Below the pieces are notes generated by a model, which was not told the origin of the DNA, searched no databases, and worked only from the letters and a program-made list of their open reading frames with translations. Made by a program: the position numbers and the translations under genes. From Erythrobacter neustonensis (GTDB lineage: Bacteria > Pseudomonadota > Alphaproteobacteria > Sphingomonadales > Sphingomonadaceae), in NCBI RefSeq assembly GCF_001663175.1, contig NZ_CP016033.1, positions 868,001 to 932,000 on the forward strand: a DNA stretch of 64,000 bases. The letters are read 5' to 3'. This document shows, one piece after another, positions 1 to 9,314 of this stretch. The stretch's first letter is position 1, and every line of letters starts with the position of its first letter.

Positions 1-446
1 CCCAGCGCGATGAACGGCCAGGCCAGCAAGCGCTTGACCGGCGCGCGTTCGGGCCGGAACGCCATCGTGACGGCATTGTCGCTTTCGGCGCGGTCCAGGA
101 AGGCGATGATGTCGAGCGCGGCGACTTCGCCCGGATGGCCCAGCACCACCAGATCGCCGATCGATTCTTCGGCTGCGATCACCCGGCGGTCGTAATATTC
201 GGACCCGGCGCGCACCACGAACAGCCGCGTGTTGGGCACATCGCGCACCACATCGAGGAAGGCGGCGCGGTCCGCCTCGTCGACGACGAGGATGATCTCG
301 CGAAAGCGGTAGGCGGTGTCGAGCCGCGCGGCGATATCGCGAAGCTGCGCGAAGGCGGCGGGGCTTGCCGAAAGTTCGGAAAAGCAGACCGAGACAACCA
401 CGTCCTCGCGCGGTTTGCGAAATGCGCCGGCGTCGGGTTCACGCAT
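1..446 (-). CDS. Glycosyltransferase family 2-like protein, partial (C-terminus beyond window)
   Basis: About 148 residues of an N-terminal region are visible; the gene runs off the left edge. It begins MREPDAGAF and then shows the beta-alpha-beta pattern of a GT-A fold (VVVSVCFSEL near residue 17, REIILVVDEAD near 50, IGDLVVLGHPGE near 95). The usual GT2 motifs are not clear: VDEAD stands where DDGS is expected and no obvious DxD follows. The ATG overlaps the stop of the upstream TIM-barrel gene by 8 bp, so it is the last visible gene of the operon that starts near 5756. The fold call is an inference from pattern only; a divergent or non-catalytic GT2 homologue is possible. Confidence 0.5.
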   Translation of the reverse strand, partial: MREPDAGAFRKPREDVVVSVCFSELSASPAAFAQLRDIAARLDTAYRFREIILVVDEADRAAFLDVVRDVPNTRLFVVRAGSEYYDRRVIAAEESIGDLVVLGHPGEVAALDIIAFLDRAESDNAVTMAFRPERAPVKRLLAWPFIAL

Positions 447-1284
447 CGGCGGCCTCCGTCGCATCGACCGCCGCGCGCAGGCCATTGACGGCGCGGCGCA
501 CTGCGGCAAGGCCATCGGGCGCGCGCTTCATCTCGATCGAGACCGCGCGCGTGTATCGCGCACCGGCAAGCCCCTTAAGCACGGGGACAAGCCGCGCCGG
601 ATCGGCGGGCGCAGGGGCCAGGCCGGGTTCGCTGACGTGGACATGAGCAAGGTGCGGGGCAAGCGCGGGCAGGCGCGCGGGCAATTCGGCGAAATCGCCG
701 TTCATGTGCATCGCTCCCACGTCGAGATGGGGCACAATCGCGGGGTGACCCACCGCGGTGACGAAGGCCAGCGCCTCGTCCAGCGTGTTGAGGAAATTGG
801 TGCCATAGGCCGCCGGATTGGCTTCGATCGCGATTCGCGTGCCTGCCGCCATGGCGGCATCGCCAAGACGGCGGAACACCTCGGCAGCCTCGTCCAGCGC
901 GCGCGCCATTGCCATGCCTTCGGGCACGCAGCGTTGCAGCGGGGAGCCGAACACGAGGTTTGGGATGTTAAAGCGCCCCGCCAGCCGGATCGCGCGGTGC
1001 ATCCCGGCCTCCAACGCGGCGCGCGGCGCCTCACCCTCGAACAGCGCGGCGCCGCTGACCCCGAACAGCAGCGATTGCATCGAAACCAGCGTCAGCCCGG
1101 CATTGGCGATTTCGCCCAGAGCGGCGGCGGCAACGGGTTCGGACGGGGCGAACGGGTCATCGGCCGCATGGAAGAACAGCCCCGGCGCGATTTCGAGGCC
1201 GCCAAAGCCCGCTTCGGCAAGGATCGCATAGGCTTCGCGCCGCTCGTCCGGCGACCACGCGATATTCGACATCGCGGGCGTCAT
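439..1284 (-). CDS. Sugar phosphate isomerase/epimerase family TIM-barrel protein
   Basis: A 281-residue protein of the xylose-isomerase-like/AP-endonuclease-2 superfamily. A metal site like that of D-tagatose 3-epimerase relatives can be read in order: Glu in IAIEANPAAYG (about residue 152), Asp/His in PHLDVGAMHMNGD (about 187), His in HVHVSEPG (about 216) and Glu in VSIEMK (about 250). This predicts a divalent-metal aldose-ketose isomerase or epimerase; the substrate cannot be read. Its ATG overlaps the epimerase stop codon by 4 bp (ATGA), so the two are translationally coupled. The neighbours (epimerase, GT2-like protein) suggest work on a sugar or sugar-derived metabolite. Confidence 0.75.
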   Translation of the reverse strand: MTPAMSNIAWSPDERREAYAILAEAGFGGLEIAPGLFFHAADDPFAPSEPVAAAALGEIANAGLTLVSMQSLLFGVSGAALFEGEAPRAALEAGMHRAIRLAGRFNIPNLVFGSPLQRCVPEGMAMARALDEAAEVFRRLGDAAMAAGTRIAIEANPAAYGTNFLNTLDEALAFVTAVGHPAIVPHLDVGAMHMNGDFAELPARLPALAPHLAHVHVSEPGLAPAPADPARLVPVLKGLAGARYTRAVSIEMKRAPDGLAAVRRAVNGLRAAVDATEAADA

Positions 1285-2264
1285 GCGGTGCGCTCGCGCT
1301 GCCCGGTGCAGAAGCGGGCGAGGCTTTCCAGCGTGTCCGCGGCGCTGAACTGGTAAGCGCCCTCAGCGCCCCACAGCCCCGCATGGGCGGTTCGCATATC
1401 CTCGCGGTGGAGGCGCGCCGCAGTCTCGGGCATCGGGCGGCCCGTCAACCGCATGTGAATATCGGCAGCGCGCAAGGGCTCGGGCGCGAGGTGGAGATGG
1501 GTGAGCCGCGCTTCGACCGCGATGCCGACATCCTGCCACAGCCGGTCGGTGTCGTAATACTGGTAGGTCGTCTCGCGGTGGTGGAACTGGACCGCGCTCG
1601 CGCCCACCGCATCGAGGGCCGCTTCCAGCGCAGGCCGACGCGGATCGGCATTCAGCGCCTCGCGGTCGAGTTTGAGCAGCCCGGTCGCGGGATCGGACAC
1701 GTAAAGCTCGTCCAGCCACGCCGCCAGATCGCCGCCGAGCATGGCAGCCACATCGTCGCGCCGCGAAGCGGTCAGCATCGCGGGCACGGGGTTCAAGAGA
1801 TCGAACAGGAAATTCTTGCGCAAACCCGCCCCGAACAATGCGGGCAGGCGGACGATCAGGCTGCCGGGGAACCGCGCTTCGACAAAGGCTTCGAGCATCC
1901 GGCGATGGCGGCCATAGGCAAGCTCCTGCTGGTAGGCATGCGTCGCCTCATCGTCGCCGCCGGCGAAATCGGCGAGCACCGCAATCGAGGACATCAGGAC
2001 GAATCGCTCCGCCCGGACCGTGTCCAGCCGCGCGATCAGCGCCTCGATCGCCGCTGCATCGCGTTCGGGCGCGCGGTTGGCTTCGATCATCGAGCCAGGT
2101 GCCGCCGCGCACACCAGCGTGGCGAAAGACGCGCCCTCGATATTGCCGATATTGCCGCTGTTGAAACAGGCATCGAACCGCGCCTGACGCAGCAGCGCGC
2201 CGCCCACGAAGCCGGTATGGCCGATCAGCCCGACAGGGCCGCGCGAGAGGTCAGCAAGGGTCAT
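1281..2264 (-). CDS. NAD(P)-dependent epimerase/dehydratase family protein
   Basis: 327 residues from the ATG giving MTLADLSRGPVG. An N-terminal Rossmann dinucleotide motif GLIGHTGFVGG marks the extended SDR family, followed by VLMSSIAVLAD (Ser region) and AYGRHRRMLE where the catalytic YxxxK is expected; the +4 position is Arg rather than Lys. A further upstream in-frame start would add about 20 residues before the Rossmann strand and looks unlikely. A 108-bp gap with a hairpin separates it from the NTF2-like gene, so it could have its own promoter, but it is tightly coupled to the TIM-barrel gene downstream. Substrate unknown; nucleotide-sugar chemistry is an inference from the family. Confidence 0.7.
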   Translation of the reverse strand: MTLADLSRGPVGLIGHTGFVGGALLRQARFDACFNSGNIGNIEGASFATLVCAAAPGSMIEANRAPERDAAAIEALIARLDTVRAERFVLMSSIAVLADFAGGDDEATHAYQQELAYGRHRRMLEAFVEARFPGSLIVRLPALFGAGLRKNFLFDLLNPVPAMLTASRRDDVAAMLGGDLAAWLDELYVSDPATGLLKLDREALNADPRRPALEAALDAVGASAVQFHHRETTYQYYDTDRLWQDVGIAVEARLTHLHLAPEPLRAADIHMRLTGRPMPETAARLHREDMRTAHAGLWGAEGAYQFSAADTLESLARFCTGQRERTA

Positions 2265-2372
2265 CGGGTGGTTCGCCGGGGTTGCTTTCGTGTCCGCACA
2301 AAGCAGGCCACCTGCGGCCTGCACCCGGCTGCGATAATTAATAGTGCTCTAGATTGGGTTAACCACCCGGCG
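2265..2372 (-). promoter_or_regulatory. Intra-operon gap with hairpin and AT-rich stretch
   Basis: This is the only sizeable gap inside the operon. It holds a 7-bp inverted repeat, GCAGGCC (2303-2309) and GGCCTGC (2316-2322), and an AT-rich run at 2333-2343 that contrasts with the surrounding GC. It may be an internal promoter or attenuator for the epimerase, TIM-barrel and GT2-like genes. I do not see a convincing -35/-10 pair. Confidence 0.3.
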
Positions 2373-2759
2373 TCACGCGCGGGCGGCGATCTCGGCGGCG
2401 TCGAAATAGTGGATGCGCAAGGTGCGCAGCAATCCGTTCTCGAAGGTGCCTGCTTCGCAGATCGTCTGGGTGAAGGGCTCGCTGCCGTCCTTCGGGTGCA
2501 TGGTGAGGCGGATCACCATCACCGCGTGCGTTTCGCCCCCGGTGCAATCGAGGATTTCGAGATTCGTGTCGGCCCAGGTGCCATACATCGCTGCGGCGCA
2601 GCGTTGCAGCGCGTCCCTGCCGCGCCACTCGCCCGCAAAGGGGAGCGAGTTCGCCTCGTAAAGCACGAAATCGGGATGGATCAGCGCCTCCACCGCCGCC
2701 CAGTCACGCGCGCCGGCGGTGGCGTAGACACGTGCCAGAAGTTCGCGCGGAGTCGCCAT
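2373..2759 (-). CDS. NTF2-like (SnoaL/ketosteroid-isomerase fold) protein
   Basis: 128 residues with the classic NTF2-like start: a helix (PRELLARVYATAGARDWAAVEALI) then HPDFVLYEANSLPFAGEWRGRDAL, a curved sheet and a C-terminal strand RIHYFDAAEI. Members are small cone-shaped proteins that act as isomerases, cyclases or binding proteins. It lies 4 bp after the lipoyl-domain gene in the same operon, so it probably works on the product of the E1/lipoyl system. No catalytic residues can be assigned with confidence. Confidence 0.7.
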   Translation of the reverse strand: MATPRELLARVYATAGARDWAAVEALIHPDFVLYEANSLPFAGEWRGRDALQRCAAAMYGTWADTNLEILDCTGGETHAVMVIRLTMHPKDGSEPFTQTICEAGTFENGLLRTLRIHYFDAAEIAARA

Positions 2760-2763
2760 CCAA

Positions 2764-3000
2764 TTAGCCTTCGTCGATGGTGCCGATCAGGTCGCCGACC
2801 TTGTAGACCGCGCCTTCCTCGCCCGTGGGACGGATGATCCCGCTGGCCTGGGCTTCGATCTCGGTGGTGCTCTTGTCGGTTTCGACGGTGTAGATGATGT
2901 CGCCTTTCTCGACACGCTCACCATCGCCGAACATCCATTCGACGAGAGTCATTTCGACCGCGCTCATGCCGAGCTTGGGGATACGGATTTCGCTGGCCAT
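2764..3000 (-). CDS. Stand-alone lipoyl (biotinyl/lipoyl) domain protein
   Basis: 78 residues that form one complete lipoyl domain and nothing else. The hairpin IYTVETDKSTTEIEA near residue 45 carries the lysine expected to be lipoylated (DKST), and IRIPKLGMSAVEMTLVEW opens the domain as in E2 subunits of acetoin and branched-chain dehydrogenases. The peripheral-subunit-binding and acyltransferase domains of a normal E2 are absent, and the stop is followed directly by another gene. The ATG overlaps the E1 beta stop (ATGA), so coexpression with E1 is certain in outline. It could act as a mobile acyl carrier; the final acceptor of the acyl group is unknown. Confidence 0.88.
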   Translation of the reverse strand: MASEIRIPKLGMSAVEMTLVEWMFGDGERVEKGDIIYTVETDKSTTEIEAQASGIIRPTGEEGAVYKVGDLIGTIDEG

Positions 3001-3986
3001 CAGGGCTTTCCTACGCTCGCTTTGATCTGGGCGACGATATCCGACTTCTGCGGGATCCAGGCCTGCTCCAAGTGGCTCGCAAAGGGCACCGCCGAGAACG
3101 TCCCTCCGATGCGCCGCACCGGTCCCTTGAGGCTGTCCCAGCACTTTTCCTGGATATTGGCGGCGATTTCCGCGCCGGTGCCGAAGGGGCGCACGGCTTC
3201 GTGCAGGGTGAGCGCGCGGCCGGTCTTGCGGACTGATGCGAGCACGGTCGCCTCGTCGTAAGGCGCGATGGTGCGAAGGTCGATCACCTCGACGCTGATG
3301 CCTTCCTTGGCGAGATCATCCGCCACGGCCAGCGCGTCCAAAACGGTGCGGCCATAGGTGATGATCGAGATATCGCTGCCCTCCCGCGCGATCGCCGCCT
3401 TGCCCAATGGCACGCGGTAACCCGGGCCGGGGTCTTCGGCCTTGAGACCATAGCACAGGATGTTCTCGATGAAGATCACCGGGTCATTGGCGTCGATGCT
3501 CGCCCGCATCAGCCCGCGCGCGTCGGCGGGGTTGGACGGGGTGACGACATGGATGCCCGCAACATGCGCGAACCAGGCTTCGAGCATATCCGAATGCTGC
3601 CCGCCGAAGCCGACACCGACGCCGGTGGTGGTGCGGATCACCATCGGGCACGGGGTCTGCCCGCCGCTCATGAAGCGCAGCTTGGCGGCGTGGTTGACGA
3701 TCTGGTCCATGCACACGCCGACGAAGTTCATCAGCATGATCTCGGCAATCGGGCGCTGGCCCGCGAGCGCCGCACCGACCGCCGCACCGATGATCGCGGT
3801 TTCCGAGATCGGCGTCGCGCGGATGCGGTGTTCGCCATATTTTTCGGTGAGGCCCGAGGTGACCTTGAATACCCCGCCCCCCTGCTTGGCGGACACATCC
3901 TCGCCAAGGCAGAACACGCCCGGATCGTCGGCCATCGCCTCGTCGATCGCGAGGTTGAGCGCCTGAGTCATGGTGATCTGGGCCAT
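3000..3986 (-). CDS. 2-oxoacid/acetoin dehydrogenase-type E1 beta subunit
   Basis: 328 residues, full length for the E1 beta (transketolase-like) family. The protein shows FCLGEDV, RATPISETAIIGAAVG with the TPP-facing glutamate, and GFGGQHSDMLEAWFAHVAGI, all typical of pyruvate/acetoin dehydrogenase E1 beta. With E1 alpha it should decarboxylate a 2-oxoacid (or cleave acetoin) and pass the acyl group to lipoamide. It is coupled by ATGA overlaps to E1 alpha upstream and to the free lipoyl domain downstream. The absence of E2 and E3 genes nearby is unusual for a catabolic complex. Confidence 0.9.
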   Translation of the reverse strand: MAQITMTQALNLAIDEAMADDPGVFCLGEDVSAKQGGGVFKVTSGLTEKYGEHRIRATPISETAIIGAAVGAALAGQRPIAEIMLMNFVGVCMDQIVNHAAKLRFMSGGQTPCPMVIRTTTGVGVGFGGQHSDMLEAWFAHVAGIHVVTPSNPADARGLMRASIDANDPVIFIENILCYGLKAEDPGPGYRVPLGKAAIAREGSDISIITYGRTVLDALAVADDLAKEGISVEVIDLRTIAPYDEATVLASVRKTGRALTLHEAVRPFGTGAEIAANIQEKCWDSLKGPVRRIGGTFSAVPFASHLEQAWIPQKSDIVAQIKASVGKP

Positions 3987-4966
3987 CAGGCGGTCTCCTC
4001 CAGCACGTCACGATAGATTTCGTCGGTGTCCGGCAGCGGTGCGGCGAGCGCGTGCTGGACGGCCGCGTCGATCTGGGCGTCGATGTCGGCGACGATTTTG
4101 TCCAATTCTTCCTCGGTGAACTGGTGCTCCCGCATCACCTTCCTGAGCTTGGGCAGCGGGTCTTCGGCCTTCATTTCGGCGATGTGCTCCGCTGGCATGT
4201 AGCTGAAGTCGGCGCCGAAGAAGTGGCCCATCATGCGGTAGCACATGGCTTCCACCAGAGTCGGCCCCTCGCCCGCCCGTGCCCGCGCGACGGCTTCGAC
4301 CATTGCAGGGTAGATCTGATGAACATCATTGCCGTCGACCGTCACGCCCTTCATCCCGTAGCCCGCCGCGCGGCTCGCGATATTGGGGCTGTCGGTGTGG
4401 TCGGCATAGGCCGTGTGCTCGCCATAGCGGTTGTTCTGGCACAGGAAGATCACCGGCAACTTGTAGAGCTGGGCCATGTTCATCGCTTCGTGGAAGCCGC
4501 CAATATTGGCCGCGCCGTCGCCGAAGCTCACGAGGGTCACGCGCCCGTCGCCGTTGTTCTGGCTCGCTATCGCAAGACCGTTGGCGATCGGAAGGCCGCT
4601 GCCCACCACGCCGGTCGTCACCATGATCCCGGTCTCGGGATCGGTGATGTGCATCGTGCCGCCCTTGCCCTTGCAGGTGCCGGTCGCCTTGCCGAGGCAT
4701 TCGCCCCACCACTTCTCCATCGGGATGCCCTTGGCGGTCTGCTCGCCCTGCCCGCGATAGGTGCAGACGACGTAATCGTCCTGTTTCAGCGCCGCCATCG
4801 CTGCGGCCGAGACCAGCTCCTGCCCGCGCACGCAGTAATACATCACCGCGACCTTGCCGCCCATCAGCAGCTCGCGGAACTTCTCGTCGGTGCGGTTCAC
4901 CTTCATCGTGCGGGTGTAGATGTCGAGCAGCGTGTCGCGCCCAATCTCTTTGGCGATCTCAGCCAT
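3986..4966 (-). CDS. 2-oxoacid/acetoin dehydrogenase-type E1 alpha subunit
   Basis: 326 residues. The thiamine diphosphate motif runs from SFGDGAANIGGFHEAMNM (about residues 146-163) to CQNNRYG (about 175-181), and GTCKGKGGTMHI matches the AcoA/PdhA type. Catalysis: TPP-dependent decarboxylation with reductive acylation of lipoyl groups in a heterotetramer with E1 beta. It begins with ATG 25 bp downstream of the SDR gene. The best overall resemblance is to the acetoin-dehydrogenase AcoA class rather than to housekeeping PdhA, judged by pattern only; the true substrate is not visible. Confidence 0.9.
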   Translation of the reverse strand: MAEIAKEIGRDTLLDIYTRTMKVNRTDEKFRELLMGGKVAVMYYCVRGQELVSAAAMAALKQDDYVVCTYRGQGEQTAKGIPMEKWWGECLGKATGTCKGKGGTMHITDPETGIMVTTGVVGSGLPIANGLAIASQNNGDGRVTLVSFGDGAANIGGFHEAMNMAQLYKLPVIFLCQNNRYGEHTAYADHTDSPNIASRAAGYGMKGVTVDGNDVHQIYPAMVEAVARARAGEGPTLVEAMCYRMMGHFFGADFSYMPAEHIAEMKAEDPLPKLRKVMREHQFTEEELDKIVADIDAQIDAAVQHALAAPLPDTDEIYRDVLEETA

Positions 4967-4991
4967 GTGTTTGAGCCCTTTCGGATGAGAA

Positions 4992-5756
4992 TCAGAACTG
5001 GACGCGCTGGGTGAAGCCGCCGTCGACGACGATGTTTGCGCCGGTCATGTAGGGCACCGCCGGGCTCGCGACGAAGACGATGGCTTTCGCGACCTCGACC
5101 GGTTCGCCGAAACGGCCCGTAGGCATCCTGGCGAGAGTGGCATCGAAAAGCTCCTTCATGTGCTCCTCGATCACTTCCCAATTGCCGCCCTTGTAATAGA
5201 CCGCGCCGGGGCTGACGGTGTTCACGCGGATGCCCTTCGCCGCATAGGCCTGGGAGAGCTGCGAGGCGTAGGTGATCAGCGCGGCCTTCAAGGCGTTGAA
5301 GGGATTGGGCGCGATGAAGGTTTCGAGCGCCGCGGTGCTCGACAGCATCACGATCGATCCGGTGCCAGAGGCTTCGAGGTAAGGCGTCAGCGTTTCGACC
5401 GCGTAGGCCGCGCCCTTGATGTCCATGTCGAGACAGGCTTGCCAGTCGCCCGCCCCGCCGGTGCCCGAGGCGCTGGCGGTGTGGACGAAGATATCGCAGC
5501 CGCCCAGTTCCTGCGCCGCCTTCTCCAGCCACGCCTGATAAGCCTCGGCGCCGGACGCCATATCGAACACCTCGGCAAACACCTTGCCCGGCCCGGCAGC
5601 ATCGATCTCGGCGACAGCGGCGGCGATCCTGTCTTCCTTGCGGGAGAAAAAGGCGACATCCGCGCCCTCGGCCGCAAACAGCTTCAATGATTCCAGCCCG
5701 AGCCCGTGGGCCCCGCCGTTCATGATGACCTTCTTGCCCTTCAATCCCAGATCCAC
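4992..5756 (-). CDS. SDR family oxidoreductase with Phe in place of the catalytic Tyr
   Basis: 254 residues of the classical short-chain dehydrogenase/reductase fold: NGGAHGLG (cofactor loop), HTASASG (NNAG position), MLSSTAA (catalytic Ser region), RVNTVSPGAV and a C-terminal VDGG. At the active site the expected YxxxK reads FNALK (codon TTC), so the catalytic tyrosine is replaced by phenylalanine while the lysine is kept. Start is GTG, with the purine-rich GGGGAGAGG just upstream. First gene of the operon leading to E1 alpha/beta. It may be catalytically impaired, structural, or use an altered mechanism. Confidence 0.85.
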   Translation of the reverse strand: MDLGLKGKKVIMNGGAHGLGLESLKLFAAEGADVAFFSRKEDRIAAAVAEIDAAGPGKVFAEVFDMASGAEAYQAWLEKAAQELGGCDIFVHTASASGTGGAGDWQACLDMDIKGAAYAVETLTPYLEASGTGSIVMLSSTAALETFIAPNPFNALKAALITYASQLSQAYAAKGIRVNTVSPGAVYYKGGNWEVIEEHMKELFDATLARMPTGRFGEPVEVAKAIVFVASPAVPYMTGANIVVDGGFTQRVQF

Positions 5757-6135: not shown

Positions 6136-6573
6136 TCAATCGGGGAGCCGCGCGAGATATTCGGCGAGCACGTCCACCTTTCGCGCCAGAAACAACCGGA
6201 TTTCGCGCGTCTGATCGCTATCGCCGTCCTGTGCGGGAAACATAACGCCCGCGCCCGACCGCCTGAGGAAACCGCGCTCGACCAGTGCGGACACCTTCCG
6301 GCGGGTTGTCTCGCGGCTCATGCCGAGGCTGGTGTGGATGTATTTCAGCGGCACGCTGGGCCGAACATCATTGGGCAGGACATCGTCCTCGCTGCCAAAA
6401 TTGCGCGTCGCAAAGGGATTTTTGCGCACCTCGCGCGTGGATTCGGCGGCAACCAGACAGATGATCGCGACCTCTTCGACGGTCAGATCGTTCTGATGGA
6501 CCGAAAAGCGCAGAAAATCGCTGAACACTTCGACGATGAATGACGCAATATAGCGGGTGGCCGCGCTTCCCAT
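6136..6573 (-). CDS. Winged-helix transcriptional regulator (unassigned family)
   Basis: 145 residues from the ATG at 6573; an in-frame ATG at 6609 would add 12 residues and neither has a strong ribosome binding site. Any longer reading runs into the tRNA-Thr gene and is excluded. The C-terminal half has a helix-turn-helix core, IHTSLGMSRETTRRKVSALVERGFLRRSG (about residues 85-113), in which MSRETTRRKV is a typical recognition helix. The N-terminal part is helical (YIASFIVEVFSDFLRF). I cannot name the family. It is transcribed in the same direction as, and just upstream of, the E1/lipoyl operon, which makes it a candidate local regulator. Confidence 0.6.
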   Translation of the reverse strand: MGSAATRYIASFIVEVFSDFLRFSVHQNDLTVEEVAIICLVAAESTREVRKNPFATRNFGSEDDVLPNDVRPSVPLKYIHTSLGMSRETTRRKVSALVERGFLRRSGAGVMFPAQDGDSDQTREIRLFLARKVDVLAEYLARLPD

Positions 6574-6649
6574 GCGTCCCGCATAGCAAACGGTTTGGCG
6601 CAAGGCCATGCCGCGCGGGTGCCAAAATACATCGATTTGGGAGGCAATT

Positions 6650-6671
6650 GCGCCGCTGGCGAAAGCGGCGC
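6650..6671 (-). terminator. Hairpin downstream of tRNA-Thr
   Basis: Perfect 8-bp stem GCGCCGCT/AGCGGCGC with a 6-base loop, placed between the tRNA 3' end and the regulator start. On the minus strand it is followed by AATTGCC, so the U-tract is poor. It may end or process the tRNA transcript. Confidence 0.35.
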
Positions 6672-6678
6672 GGTGTTC

Positions 6679-6753
6679 TGGTGCTGCTGGGGAGGATTGA
6701 ACTCCCGACCTCACCCTTACCAAGGGTGCGCTCTACCACTGAGCTACAGCAGC
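6679..6753 (-). tRNA. tRNA-Thr (anticodon GGT)
   Basis: A complete 75-nt cloverleaf including an encoded CCA. Acceptor stem GCTGCTG pairs with CAGCAGC; the D arm is GCTC-AGTGGTA-GAGC; the anticodon stem CACCC/GGGTG closes the 7-base loop TTGGTAA, giving anticodon GGT, which reads threonine ACC/ACT codons; the T arm is GGGAG-TTCAATC-CTCCC. Discriminator base A. Its own promoter lies immediately upstream. Confidence 0.97.
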
Positions 6754-6770
6754 GCCGGATCAGGCGCGCC

Positions 6771-6798
6771 CTATTGTCGCGCGCTGCGGTTATGTCAA
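6771..6798 (-). promoter_or_regulatory. Promoter of tRNA-Thr
   Basis: On the minus strand a perfect -35 TTGACA (6798-6793) is followed after 16 bp by CAATAG (6776-6771), placing a start site roughly 10 bp before the mature tRNA 5' end at 6753. The strong -35 suits a stable-RNA gene; the -10 is weaker. Confidence 0.6.
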
Positions 6799-6841
6799 GC
6801 AGGGCTTGATGGGGGGATGCTATATCTGCAAGGCGTTTCGC

Positions 6842-7003
6842 ATGAATGACGATGCTCGCAAGAAAATAACAAGGGAGGAGCGGCTCGCAGCCAAGCTTCG
6901 CGAAAACCTGCGGCGTAGGAAGGCGCAAAGCCGTGCCGCGGCGCAACTCAATGACGAATCGGATAGCGCGCAGCCTCTTCCCAATTGTCCGCCTGAGAGC
7001 TAA
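6842..7003 (+). CDS. Small basic/charged protein of unknown function
   Basis: 53 residues from the ATG giving MNDDARKKITREERL; an upstream in-frame start would add 12 residues with no hydrophobic or domain character. The middle is a Lys/Arg/Glu-rich helix (EERLAAKLRENLRRRKAQSRAAAQ) and the tail is proline- and serine-rich. It precedes gpmA by 54 bp in the same direction. No function can be read; the charged single helix could bind nucleic acid or a protein partner. Confidence 0.6.
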   Translation: MNDDARKKITREERLAAKLRENLRRRKAQSRAAAQLNDESDSAQPLPNCPPES

Positions 7004-7057
7004 CGCCGCGCGCTCTTGCTGGTTGCTCACCGATCCCACCGGAACCCCGGAGACAAA

Positions 7058-7744
7058 ATGCCCAAGCTCATTCTCGTCCGCCACGGCCAGAGCCAGTGGA
7101 ACCTCGAAAACCGCTTCACCGGCTGGTGGGATGTCGATCTCACCGAAAAAGGCGTCGCTGAAGCGGTCGCAGCGGGGCATCTGCTGCGCGAAAAGGCGGT
7201 GCTGCCCACCTTTGCCTTCACCTCGCTCCAGACCCGCGCGATCCGCACGCTGCATCTCGCGCTCGAAGCGGCGGGCCGGTTGTGGATCCCCGAGGTCAAG
7301 GACTGGCGCCTGAACGAGCGGCACTATGGCGGGCTGACCGGGCTCGACAAGGCCGAAACCGCGGCCAAGCACGGCGACGATCAGGTCAAGATCTGGCGCC
7401 GCAGCTTCGATATTCCCCCGCCCGAACTCGAAGCGGCGAGCGAATATGATCTGGCGAGCGACCCGCGCTATGCCGGGATCGCGATCCCCAACACCGAAAG
7501 CCTCAAACTGACGATCGAGCGCGTGCTGCCCTATTGGGAAAGCACGATCCTGCCCGTGCTCGCCCGGGGCGAGACCGTCATCATCGCCGCGCACGGCAAC
7601 AGCTTGCGCGCGCTGGCCAAACACCTTTCGGCGATTTCGGATGCGGACATCACCGATCTGGAAATTCCCACCGGCCAGCCGATCATCTACGACTTCGACG
7701 AGACGATGCAGCCGCGCGAGCGCTACTATCTGAAGGACGCGTGA
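7058..7744 (+). CDS. gpmA: 2,3-bisphosphoglycerate-dependent phosphoglycerate mutase
   Basis: 228 residues. Interconverts 3- and 2-phosphoglycerate in glycolysis/gluconeogenesis through a phosphohistidine. [10 protein letters not shown] at residues 6-15 carries the phosphorylated histidine (residue 9), Glu in [10 protein letters not shown] (about 87) is the proton donor, and [10 protein letters not shown] (about 180-189) supplies the second active-site histidine. The ATG is preceded by GGAG and begins the conserved [10 protein letters not shown]; an in-frame upstream start lacks family similarity. The stop overlaps the purE start by 1 bp. Confidence 0.96.
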
Positions 7745-8247
7745 TGGAAGAGACCGGGGGCAAGGTTGCGATCGTGATGGGCAGTCAGTCCGACTGGCCG
7801 ACCATGAAATGCGCCGCCGAGGTGCTGAGCGAACTCGAAGTGCCGTTCGAGGCGCGCATCACCTCCGCCCACCGCACGCCCGACCGGATGGTCGCCTTTG
7901 CCAAGGGCGCGGAAGGCGAAGGCTTCAGCGTCATCATTGCCGGGGCCGGCGGCGCCGCGCACTTGCCCGGCATGATCGCCAGCATGACCCATCTGCCCGT
8001 GCTGGGGGTGCCGGTGCAGTCGAAGGCTTTGTCGGGCATGGATAGCCTGCTCTCGATCGTGCAGATGCCGGGCGGGATTCCGGTCGGCACGCTCGCCATC
8101 GGCGAAGCGGGGGCGAAGAACGCAGGGCTGCTTGCCGCCTCGATCCTCGCGCTCTCCGACGAGGCATTGTCGGAGCGTTTGCAGGACTGGCGCGCGGAAA
8201 AGAGCGCTGCGGTGGCCGAGGCGCCCTCCGAAGAACCGGAACACTGA
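7744..8247 (+). CDS. purE: N5-carboxyaminoimidazole ribonucleotide mutase
   Basis: 167 residues. Moves the carboxyl group of N5-CAIR to C4 in purine synthesis. The class I PurE signatures [23 protein letters not shown] (substrate-binding His) and [16 protein letters not shown] are all present, as is [29 protein letters not shown]. The ATG overlaps the gpmA stop and the stop overlaps the purK start, so the three genes are translationally coupled. Next to purK it forms the usual bacterial two-step carboxylation pair. Confidence 0.97.
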
Positions 8248-9314
8248 TGCTTAGCCCGGGCTCAACCATCGGCATTCTGGGCGGCGGACAGCTGGGCCGG
8301 ATGATGGCCATTGCCGCGCTGCAGCTCGGCTACCGCGTGATCGGCTATGCGCCCGAAGGCGACAATGTCGCCGCCGATGCGTGCAGCGATTTCATCACCG
8401 CCGAATGGGACGATGCCGCGGCGCGCGCCCGCTTCGCCGATGCCTGCGACGTGGTGACGTGGGAATTCGAGAACGTCCCTGTCAGCACGGTGGCCGCTTT
8501 GCCCGAAGGGCTGGTCGCCTGCCCGGCCAAGGCGCTCGAAGTGGCGCAGGATCGGCTGAGCGAAAAAGCCTTCGCCGCCGATCTCGGCGGAACGCCCGCC
8601 CCCTACGCTGCGGTCACCAGCGCCGAAAGCTTTGCCGCGGCGATTGCTGCGATCGGCACCCCCGGCATCCTCAAGACCGCGCGCGACGGGTACGACGGCA
8701 AGGGCCAGTGGCGCGTGCGCTCCGCGCTCGAGGCCGGCGCGCTCGCCTTTCCCGGGGTCACCTGCATCTACGAAGGCTTCGTCACCTACGAGACCGAATT
8801 TTCGGTGATCCTCGTGCGCGGCGCGGACGGCACGATCAAATTCTGGGATTCGACCGCGAATTTCCATGAAGGCGGGATGCTTGCGCTGTCGGTGCTGCCC
8901 GCGGGCGCGCTCGTCGAAGCCCAGGTCGCGCAGGCGCGGGCGCTTGCGGGCAAGGTCGCCGATGCGCTCGGCTATGTCGGGGTGCTGACGCTCGAATTCT
9001 TCGCCACGAAGGACGGGCCGGTGTTCAACGAGATGGCCCCGCGGGTGCACAATTCGGGCCACTGGACGATCGAGGGCGCGGCCACCAGCCAGTTCGAAAA
9101 CCACATCCGCGCGGTGTGCGGCCTGCCCCTGGGCGGCACCGCGACCCGCTTTGCCAGCATCGAGATGCGCAACATTGTCGGCGAGGATGGCCTGCGGGCC
9201 CACGCGATGCTTGCCGAACCGGGAGAGCCGCACCTCCACCTCTACGGCAAGGCCGAAGCGCGCGAGGGACGCAAGATGGGCCATGTCACCCGCGTCGGAC
9301 ACGCACTGGGATGA
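8247..9314 (+). CDS. purK: 5-(carboxyamino)imidazole ribonucleotide synthase
   Basis: 355 residues, ATP-grasp fold. Uses ATP and bicarbonate to carboxylate AIR to N5-CAIR, the substrate of PurE. The N-terminal GILGGGQLGRMMAIAA is diagnostic; ILKTARDGYDGKGQWRV is the ATP-binding lysine region; EFFATKDGPVFNEMAPRVHNSGHWTIEGAATSQFENHIRA is the metal-binding C-terminal signature. Shares an ATGA overlap with purE upstream and with folA downstream. Confidence 0.97.
   Translation: MLSPGSTIGILGGGQLGRMMAIAALQLGYRVIGYAPEGDNVAADACSDFITAEWDDAAARARFADACDVVTWEFENVPVSTVAALPEGLVACPAKALEVAQDRLSEKAFAADLGGTPAPYAAVTSAESFAAAIAAIGTPGILKTARDGYDGKGQWRVRSALEAGALAFPGVTCIYEGFVTYETEFSVILVRGADGTIKFWDSTANFHEGGMLALSVLPAGALVEAQVAQARALAGKVADALGYVGVLTLEFFATKDGPVFNEMAPRVHNSGHWTIEGAATSQFENHIRAVCGLPLGGTATRFASIEMRNIVGEDGLRAHAMLAEPGEPHLHLYGKAEAREGRKMGHVTRVGHALG

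Follow-up and report, generated by a model that had tools for sequence, protein, structure and literature searches.

A free lipoyl protein beside a distinct E1 in Erythrobacter neustonensis: a putative acyl-transfer unit of a dispersed catabolic pathway

2-Oxoacid dehydrogenases are substrate-channelling machines with a swinging arm anchored to the E2 core, and the E2 of acetoin dehydrogenase combines a lipoyl and a hydrolase-type domain in one chain. The 2-oxoacid:ferredoxin oxidoreductase EdcC is reportedly dependent on thiamine diphosphate (ThDP). In the available part of its description, EdcC of oestrogen degradation in Novosphingobium and Sphingomonas is proposed to decarboxylate oxidatively a 2-oxo acid from ring cleavage, forming a coenzyme A (CoA) ester (PMC7793797), while the available part of the report on DesAB, the steroid-17,20-desmolase of Clostridium scindens, describes a two-subunit, transketolase-like enzyme with a hypothesised side-chain cutting by thiamine pyrophosphate (TPP) (PMC3735941). 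Given both precedents, a ThDP-type step in steroid catabolism is reasonable. Here, we describe an operon of Erythrobacter neustonensis in which a short-chain dehydrogenase/reductase (SDR1), the E1 alpha (E1a) and E1 beta (E1b) chains of a dehydrogenase (together, E1ab), a stand-alone lipoyl protein of 78 residues, and an NTF2-like protein are encoded in succession. It is located at about 0.87 Mb of the single 3.09-Mb contig NZ_CP016033.1, at one end of the window, i.e., the whole stretch of 64,000 nucleotides that was analysed (positions 868001-932000). On balance, and with modest confidence, we favour the reading that these five genes form a unit dedicated to ThDP/lipoyl-based acyl transfer, within a CoA-dependent catabolic pathway whose genes are dispersed and whose substrate would be hydrophobic and probably cyclic.

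The conserved unit and its proteins

The genes of the unit are listed below in the order in which they are read.

4992..5756, minus strand: SDR1, 254 aa, short-chain dehydrogenase/reductase fold (Pfam PF13561, E 4.5e-40)
3986..4966, minus strand: E1a, 326 aa, ThDP-binding (Pfam E1_dh PF00676, E 1.7e-70)
3000..3986, minus strand: E1b, 328 aa (Transket_pyr/Transketolase_C PF02779/PF02780; NCBIfam PRK09212, 347.7 bits, cut-off 321)
2764..3000, minus strand: stand-alone lipoyl protein, 78 aa (Biotin_lipoyl PF00364, E 3.4e-14)
2373..2759, minus strand: NTF2/SnoaL-like protein, 128 aa (SnoaL_2 PF12680, E 1.5e-12)
2265..2372, minus strand: intergenic gap of 108 nt, end of the conserved unit

The unit is compact, with 25 nt between SDR1 and E1a, one-base overlaps (TGATG) at the E1a/E1b and E1b/lipoyl junctions, and 4 nt between the lipoyl and NTF2 genes, and the sugar genes that follow constitute a separate module after the 108-nt gap. 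An earlier interpretation made from the letters alone (hereafter, the sequence-only reading) had described eight tightly packed genes; all eight frames were found on the minus strand, and the packing holds for these five, but the gap splits NTF2 from the epimerase gene, and the two modules are separable in relatives. The gap measures 108 nt to the ATG of the epimerase gene, or 48 nt should translation begin at the GTG at 2324; the scanner detected no terminator within it, and its fold z-score of -1.63 is not remarkable.

The two E1 chains have the domains of a heterotetramer-type E1 (PF00676, PF02779, and PF02780) and the corresponding ThDP and catalytic motifs, namely the ThDP motif GDG..N, PISE (with the ThDP glutamate) and QHS (as QHSD) in E1b, and, in the alignment, GH in E1a, and an assembly of this type is predicted from the sequence. 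E1a departs from the E1a of pyruvate dehydrogenase (PDH) and acetoin-type enzymes in having Tyr44 followed by RGQE (YY..RGQE) where these have His before GQE, as seen in the genome's own PdhA, human PDH, and acetoin-type references, so that the pocket His of a PDH E1 is missing. This position, which we take to be that of His63 of human E1a, a substrate-pocket residue, is Tyr in 81 of 81 E1a rows and is also invariant in a 12-row alignment (A1). The best NCBIfam match of E1a is the PDH model TIGR03182, and the scores of E1a, E1b, and the lipoyl protein are all under the cut-offs except that of E1b for PRK09212. In FastTree phylogenies, the E1a family stands apart from acetoin and PDH rows with a support of 1.000 and the E1b family apart from acetoin-type rows with 0.999, in small trees from which the genome's own branched-chain 2-oxoacid dehydrogenase (BCKDH) E1a was dropped, in which the second-copy alpha row of L054 is partial, and of which the beta tree has no PDH or BCKDH rows. 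On these alignments and trees, the E1 forms its own subfamily, apart from the E1 of PDH and acetoin dehydrogenase. Acetoin dehydrogenase as such was rejected on the separate clade, the Tyr44 motif, and the lack of AcoC in the operon.

The 78-aa protein carries the lipoylation turn ETDKSTTEIEA and has 485 homologues at E ≤ 0.001; at the sequence level, it possesses Lys43 as the conserved lipoylation lysine of the lipoyl domains of 2-oxoacid dehydrogenase complexes. Its Pfam matches are to Biotin_lipoyl models only, which places it outside the GcvH family and sets it apart from free lipoyl proteins of the GcvH/LbpA type. The NCBIfam models and solved structures closest to it are for the most part lipoyl domains of E2, the best NCBIfam match being, below the cut-off, the acetoin E2 model PRK14875. 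Since E1a, E1b, and the lipoyl gene are contiguous in 78 of the 78 loci with enough sequence, and all 79 aligned rows retain Asp-Lys at the turn, this protein is very probably the mobile lipoyl acyl carrier of the present E1, as the sequence-only reading had proposed.

In SDR1, the catalytic Tyr of the YxxxK motif is Phe153 in all 76 aligned rows, its own included, with Ser140 and Lys157 kept, and, among the best 120 of its 1815 database homologues, 118 have Phe and two have Tyr. Both distant plasmid relatives of SDR1 with E1ab in the same stretch are of the Phe type (L103, and L108, only 35% identical); of the six whose stretch lacks E1ab, all have Tyr except L135, which has Phe and a single-chain ThDP-binding protein nearby. 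These small numbers suggest that SDR1 chemistry might be linked to the ThDP step.

Catabolic neighbours and dispersed pathway genes

The neighbourhood of the unit was compared in the best 80 of 126 confirmed, named relatives (69-96% E1a identity), which belong to Erythrobacter, Porphyrobacter, Altererythrobacter, Novosphingobium, Sphingopyxis, Blastomonas, and others, the nearest to the window in the E1a scan being Erythrobacter/Porphyrobacter loci. Gene positions come from tblastn, under identity and length thresholds of our own setting, and not from a gene caller, with at least 42% identity for RO1 (one of two Rieske oxygenase alpha subunits), 55% for acyl-CoA dehydrogenase (ACAD), and 35% for NTF2, and other cut-offs would alter the counts. 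A simple open reading frame (ORF) caller, which miscalled several frames, served for orientation only, including the placement of the glutathione S-transferase (GST) gene, and not for neighbour counts. In 71 of the 72 loci with enough upstream sequence, SDR1 precedes E1a by less than 1.6 kb, and an NTF2 match occurs in 69 of the 80. Moreover, 47/80 loci contain at least two of ten catabolic-cluster families, i.e., both Rieske alpha subunits, a VOC protein, a LuxR regulator, an acyl-CoA synthetase (PRK07798-like), a pimC-like ACAD, a ThuA protein, an SDR, an LTP-like thiolase, and a ChsH2_C OB-fold protein, assignments that for the most part do not reach the NCBIfam cut-offs. Of the 80 loci, 22 have a GST gene at 40% identity or more, which lies directly between SDR1 and E1a in those of Sphingopyxis and Blastomonas, including L064, L065, L067, and L081.

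In the genome of the window, the remaining pathway genes seem to be present but dispersed. A homologue of RO1 (84% identity) is located at 1.225 Mb in the cluster SDR4-RO1-VOC-LuxR-CoA ligase (L115), and the thiolase (85%) at 0.773 Mb in the cluster OB-thiolase-SDR3-ThuA-ACAD (L116), together with a P450. The latter stretch also encodes a molybdopterin oxidoreductase, the P450, and a second ThuA-like protein (L116:3384-5564 and 6600-9092). Among 147 genomes of the order, searched at E ≤ 1e-105 for E1a and E ≤ 1e-120 for RO1 and the thiolase, E1a occurs in five, RO1 in nine, and the thiolase in ten, and all five E1a genomes belong to both other sets (Fisher p of 2.4e-7 for E1a/RO1 and 4.7e-7 for E1a/thiolase, uncorrected for kinship). 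A thiolase at 81% identity or above is found in exactly the five E1a genomes (p 1.9e-9), a cut chosen post hoc, for which the result at the preset E ≤ 1e-120 is preferred. Linkage alone does not explain this co-occurrence, because the three genes are some 100-350 kb apart in G000 and G519, and G349 has E1a on one contig and RO1 and the thiolase elsewhere. Three genomes of the same genus (G087, G467, and G506) have no match for E1a, RO1, or the thiolase. At E ≤ 1e-105, with the family alignment, E1a is rare, occurring in 3 of 398 genomes of a phylum sample; this threshold would miss an E1a of about 50% identity, and more of the RO1 and thiolase genomes may hold distant E1a.

Distant relatives were taken from 8 of 20 listed plasmid records (711 in all), with E1a identities of 43-51% and about 19 kb each. 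A lipoyl gene of 76-77 aa directly follows E1b in five of them (Diaphorobacter L101, Paraburkholderia L102 and L107, Azospirillum L104, and Streptomyces L105) and is 4.3 kb away in Sphingobium RAC03 (L106), while none is annotated within 19 kb in Sphingobium TomTYG64 (L103) or Rhodococcus (L108); in the sister Sphingobium record TomMM15, it lies about 17 kb from E1a. Rieske oxygenases and AMP-binding ligases are annotated in the same four loci (L104, L105, L107, and L108), with a weak, unannotated Rieske match in L103, enoyl-CoA hydratases in five (L103, L105, L106, L107, and L108), ACADs in four (L102, L103, L105, and L107), and NTF2 in three (L104, L107, and L108); VOC, ThuA, OB-fold, and thiolase genes are found in L108 only. 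This locus of Rhodococcus sp. ZPP, an actinomycete, has E1ab, the Phe-type SDR, Rieske, ThuA, VOC, NTF2, OB, and thiolase genes, a large part of the set seen in sphingomonads. Of four FAD proteins compared with the NCBIfam model for 3-ketosteroid-delta-1-dehydrogenase (KstD; cut-off 789), those beside E1 in L107 (924 bits) and L104 (915 bits) exceed the cut-off, and those of L105 and L106 do not.

E2 cores, proposed mechanism, and alternatives

In three of the eight distant loci (L101, L102, and L107), the gene next after the lipoyl gene encodes a stand-alone E2 core (249-275 aa, PF00198 only); a 231-aa E2-core-like frame lies 4 kb from E1a in L103, and no E2 core was found in the 19 kb of L104, L105, L106, or L108. 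The order in L125, from a genome of another family (G146), is Rieske-KstD-E1a-E1b-lipoyl-E2cat-ligase-ACAD-ACAD, its KstD being a 76% relative. The best reading of the lipoyl protein is, thus, as an E2 lipoyl domain that has become detached and that would have, in the loci that encode one, a detached E2 core as its partner, and the stand-alone acyltransferase that follows it in three plasmid loci suggests that CoA was the ancestral acceptor. As a separate observation, the Azospirillum B510 plasmid to which L104 belongs has another free lipoyl gene, which is surrounded by transposases, precedes a gene for a stand-alone E2 catalytic domain (L131:8679-9720), and lies more than 80 kb from the E1ab-lipoyl genes.

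In the window's order, no E2 dedicated to this E1 and uniting a lipoyl domain, a subunit-binding domain, and a PF00198 core in one chain was found, and the lack of an E2 gene noticed by the sequence-only reading is confirmed in this sense. PF00198 occurs in the 3.09-Mb contig only at 2.46, 2.64, and 2.95 Mb, away from the operon, and E3-like genes, sought by tblastn in the own-genome stretches examined rather than genome-wide, adjoin two of these three E2 genes, with none near the operon. The five operon-bearing genomes checked in the order have exactly three PF00198 genes each, in frames of at least 408 aa that correspond to ordinary E2s (G146 has five, one of them beside E1a). Because there are only three ordinary E2 genes per operon-bearing genome, the E2 core is, as far as these gene complements tell, borrowed or not used in this order. 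The only E2-core matches in the 80 loci are the complete E2 genes of the Novosphingobium-type loci L054, L055, and L056, where a second E1 and a complete E2 (lipoyl and catalytic domains) are encoded about 10 kb upstream of the free-lipoyl unit (L054:1-2999).

If the unit does serve a CoA-dependent catabolic pathway, the Rieske and SDR steps would form an alpha-ketol or, once the ring is opened, a 2-oxo acid, which the E1a2b2 enzyme would bind, breaking the C-C bond beside the carbonyl by cleavage or decarboxylation and reductively acylating the lipoyl group of the 78-aa protein. This carrier would then diffuse to an E2 acting in trans, i.e., the stand-alone E2 catalytic domain where present and presumably a housekeeping E2 in the window's order, yielding an acyl-CoA that could enter the acyl-CoA dehydrogenase and thiolase steps, while a housekeeping E3, also in trans, would reoxidise the carrier. 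A more specific proposal, which we advance tentatively as a possibility, is an undescribed ring-carbon cleavage, in which the ThDP E1 of its own subfamily might cut a bulky cyclic alpha-ketol or ring-cleavage 2-oxo acid supplied by the Rieske oxygenases, with the help of the Tyr-less SDR, and load the free lipoyl protein, delivery taking place in Sphingomonadales without a dedicated E2.

Several points weigh against assigning the unit to such a pathway. The neighbour counts have no random-locus control, the 80 loci are close relatives and not independent, and 26 of them show neither catabolic nor sugar neighbours in the sequence examined. All five E1a-positive genomes belong to one family, three of them to one genus, and the RO1 match of G349 is only 48% identical and has one internal stop. 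Rieske genes are annotated in only four of the eight distant loci; L102 and L106 have none annotated, and L101 is annotated over 19 kb without Rieske, ligase, ACAD, or NTF2 genes. A stand-alone or dedicated E2 was found neither in the genome of the window nor in the four other operon-bearing genomes checked, so that transfer to CoA is putative there. Finally, a steroid (9,10-seco) route is unsupported in the genome of the window, where KstD is absent apart from a 49-residue match (E 3.2e-4), and for this reason the pathway is not called a steroid pathway.

The alternative that survives best, although we consider it unlikely, is an E2-free relay in the window's order, in which the acyl group would pass from the lipoyl protein to water, to glutathione by means of the GST, or to an enzyme-bound nucleophile. 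The absence of a dedicated E2 from all five operon-bearing genomes checked in the order and of any E2 core in the 80 loci beyond those of L054-L056 favours it, as do the GST genes, in part directly between SDR1 and E1a, and the loss of the catalytic Tyr from SDR1, which may do other chemistry. However, an E2 acyltransferase adjoins the lipoyl gene in three of the eight distant loci and in L125, and we know of no enzyme that transfers an acyl group from lipoyl to glutathione.

Rather improbable is the alternative that E1ab and the lipoyl protein are an ordinary acetoin/pyruvate-type dehydrogenase module, which would simply lie near catabolic genes and borrow its E2 and E3. This would agree with the Pfam and NCBIfam matches to PDH and acetoin models (TIGR03182 for E1a and PRK14875 for the lipoyl protein) and with neighbour counts that have no random control, but those scores, save that of E1b for PRK09212, are under the cut-offs, the Tyr for His exchange at position 44 extends to every row, the trees separate the family, and E1a co-occurs with RO1 and the thiolase.

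The three genes that follow the gap in the window belong to a sugar-type module.

1281..2264, minus strand: epimerase-like extended SDR, with which a separate surface-sugar-type module begins (PF01370, weak, E 2e-6)
439..1284, minus strand: AP_endonuc_2 TIM-barrel protein, separate sugar-type module (PF01261, E 3e-22)
1..515, minus strand: start of a 367-aa protein of the sugar-type module, the rest outside the window (complete copy L003:7412-8515)

The epimerase and TIM-barrel genes overlap by 4 nt (ATGA), and beyond the window edge follow a FAD (DAO) oxidoreductase, a large membrane protein, a GtrA protein, and a GT2 membrane protein. The whole series (window 1-2264, L003:3804-8515, and L002:13465-15906) recurs in a common gene order in six Porphyrobacter/Erythrobacter loci (L007, L008, L012, L016, L025, and L060) and looks like a Gtr-type surface-sugar locus. 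The 367-aa protein, when complete, has no Pfam match at E ≤ 0.001, and its earlier designation as GT2-like was not sustained. Any of four sugar genes (epimerase, TIM barrel, GT2-like, and DAO) is found in only 7 of the 80 loci, taken singly the epimerase in seven, the TIM barrel in six, and the 367-aa protein in six, and a conserved linkage of the E1-lipoyl genes to a surface-sugar operon is not seen; 65 of the loci extend at least 9 kb downstream of E1a, and six of those 65 have sugar genes. No locus combines sugar genes with two or more catabolic neighbours, a partial epimerase match in L006 being under the length cut. The sugar-type operon of the sequence-only reading, therefore, fits the neighbours in a subset of strains and is not general. 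The transfer of a C2 or longer unit from the lipoyl carrier to a sugar or aldehyde, giving a branched or acylated surface sugar, was suggested by the epimerase, TIM-barrel, and GT2-like genes next on the same strand and would suit the FAD oxidoreductase, GtrA, and GT2 membrane proteins downstream, but it is highly improbable and is rejected on the neighbourhood counts, since these genes are rarely shared, the 108-nt gap intervenes, and the unit travels instead with CoA-type catabolic genes.

On the other side of the unit, an ORF for a helix-turn-helix (HTH) regulator at 6136-6753 (195 aa from TTG) begins within a tRNA-Thr gene (6679-6753), and its true start is probably further downstream, since the ORF start falls inside the tRNA gene.

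Comparison with known systems

A description of an E1ab-free-lipoyl unit was not found in the open-licence PMC literature. In the available parts of the papers on bile-salt degradation by Sphingobium Chol11 (PMC12175502, PMC8399759, and PMC12882949), there is no mention of lipoyl, thiamine, or a dehydrogenase E1, and homologues of Sal and Ltp2 are described as missing from this strain (PMC8399759). The Chol11 pathway was accordingly set aside as a candidate, as it lacks Ltp2, whereas the present pathway has an LTP-like thiolase. Neither lipoyl nor thiamine occurs in the available text of the Novosphingobium tardaugens oestrogen paper and of an oestrogen review. The sequence-only reading had counted membership in a known degradation pathway against its own proposal; the context is indeed degradative, but no known pathway could be named.

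Within steroid catabolism, EdcC of N. tardaugens is the nearest functional precedent for this unit, in a sphingomonad pathway; unlike it, EdcC is of a ferredoxin-type family and appears, in the available part of the source, without mention of a lipoyl carrier (PMC7793797). DesAB differs in belonging to the transketolase family and in being anaerobic, and the available part of that report likewise mentions no lipoyl carrier (PMC3735941). In Agrobacterium (L123), a fused E1 is accompanied by a 77-aa lipoyl protein and a separate alpha/beta hydrolase; as in the present unit, the lipoyl domain is detached from the rest of E2, but the neighbourhood is of the sugar/polyol type and the fused E1 is outside the present subfamily.

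Acetoin dehydrogenase, with reference loci in Azospirillum thermophilum (L119), L118, and L120, shares the order E1a-E1b-lipoyl, and acetoin E2, named as such in the L118 and L119 records, provides the best NCBIfam match of the lipoyl protein; however, acetoin E1a has His where the present family has Tyr and forms a separate clade. With pyruvate and branched-chain 2-oxoacid dehydrogenases, the unit has in common the alpha2beta2-type E1, the ThDP motif, the catalytic His and Glu, and an E2-type lipoyl domain. It is unlike them in that the lipoyl domain is free and the operon encodes neither the subunit-binding nor the catalytic part of an E2, in that Tyr stands for the PDH pocket His, and in its catabolic-cluster neighbours.

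The unit seems to mark a degradation pathway of Sphingomonadales, apparently of ring-compound catabolism, and has relatives in Burkholderiales, Azospirillum, and Actinomycetota. Judged by its domains and motifs, it works like a 2-oxoacid or acyloin dehydrogenase without a one-chain E2, and it is the missing one-chain E2 that sets it apart from the standard 2-oxoacid dehydrogenases. It represents a conserved family with the swinging arm cut loose. Some lineages have the E2 core as a further free protein, and in others no core dedicated to the unit was found; compared with the tethered complexes, such a family could serve as a natural test of whether tethering of the arm is needed.

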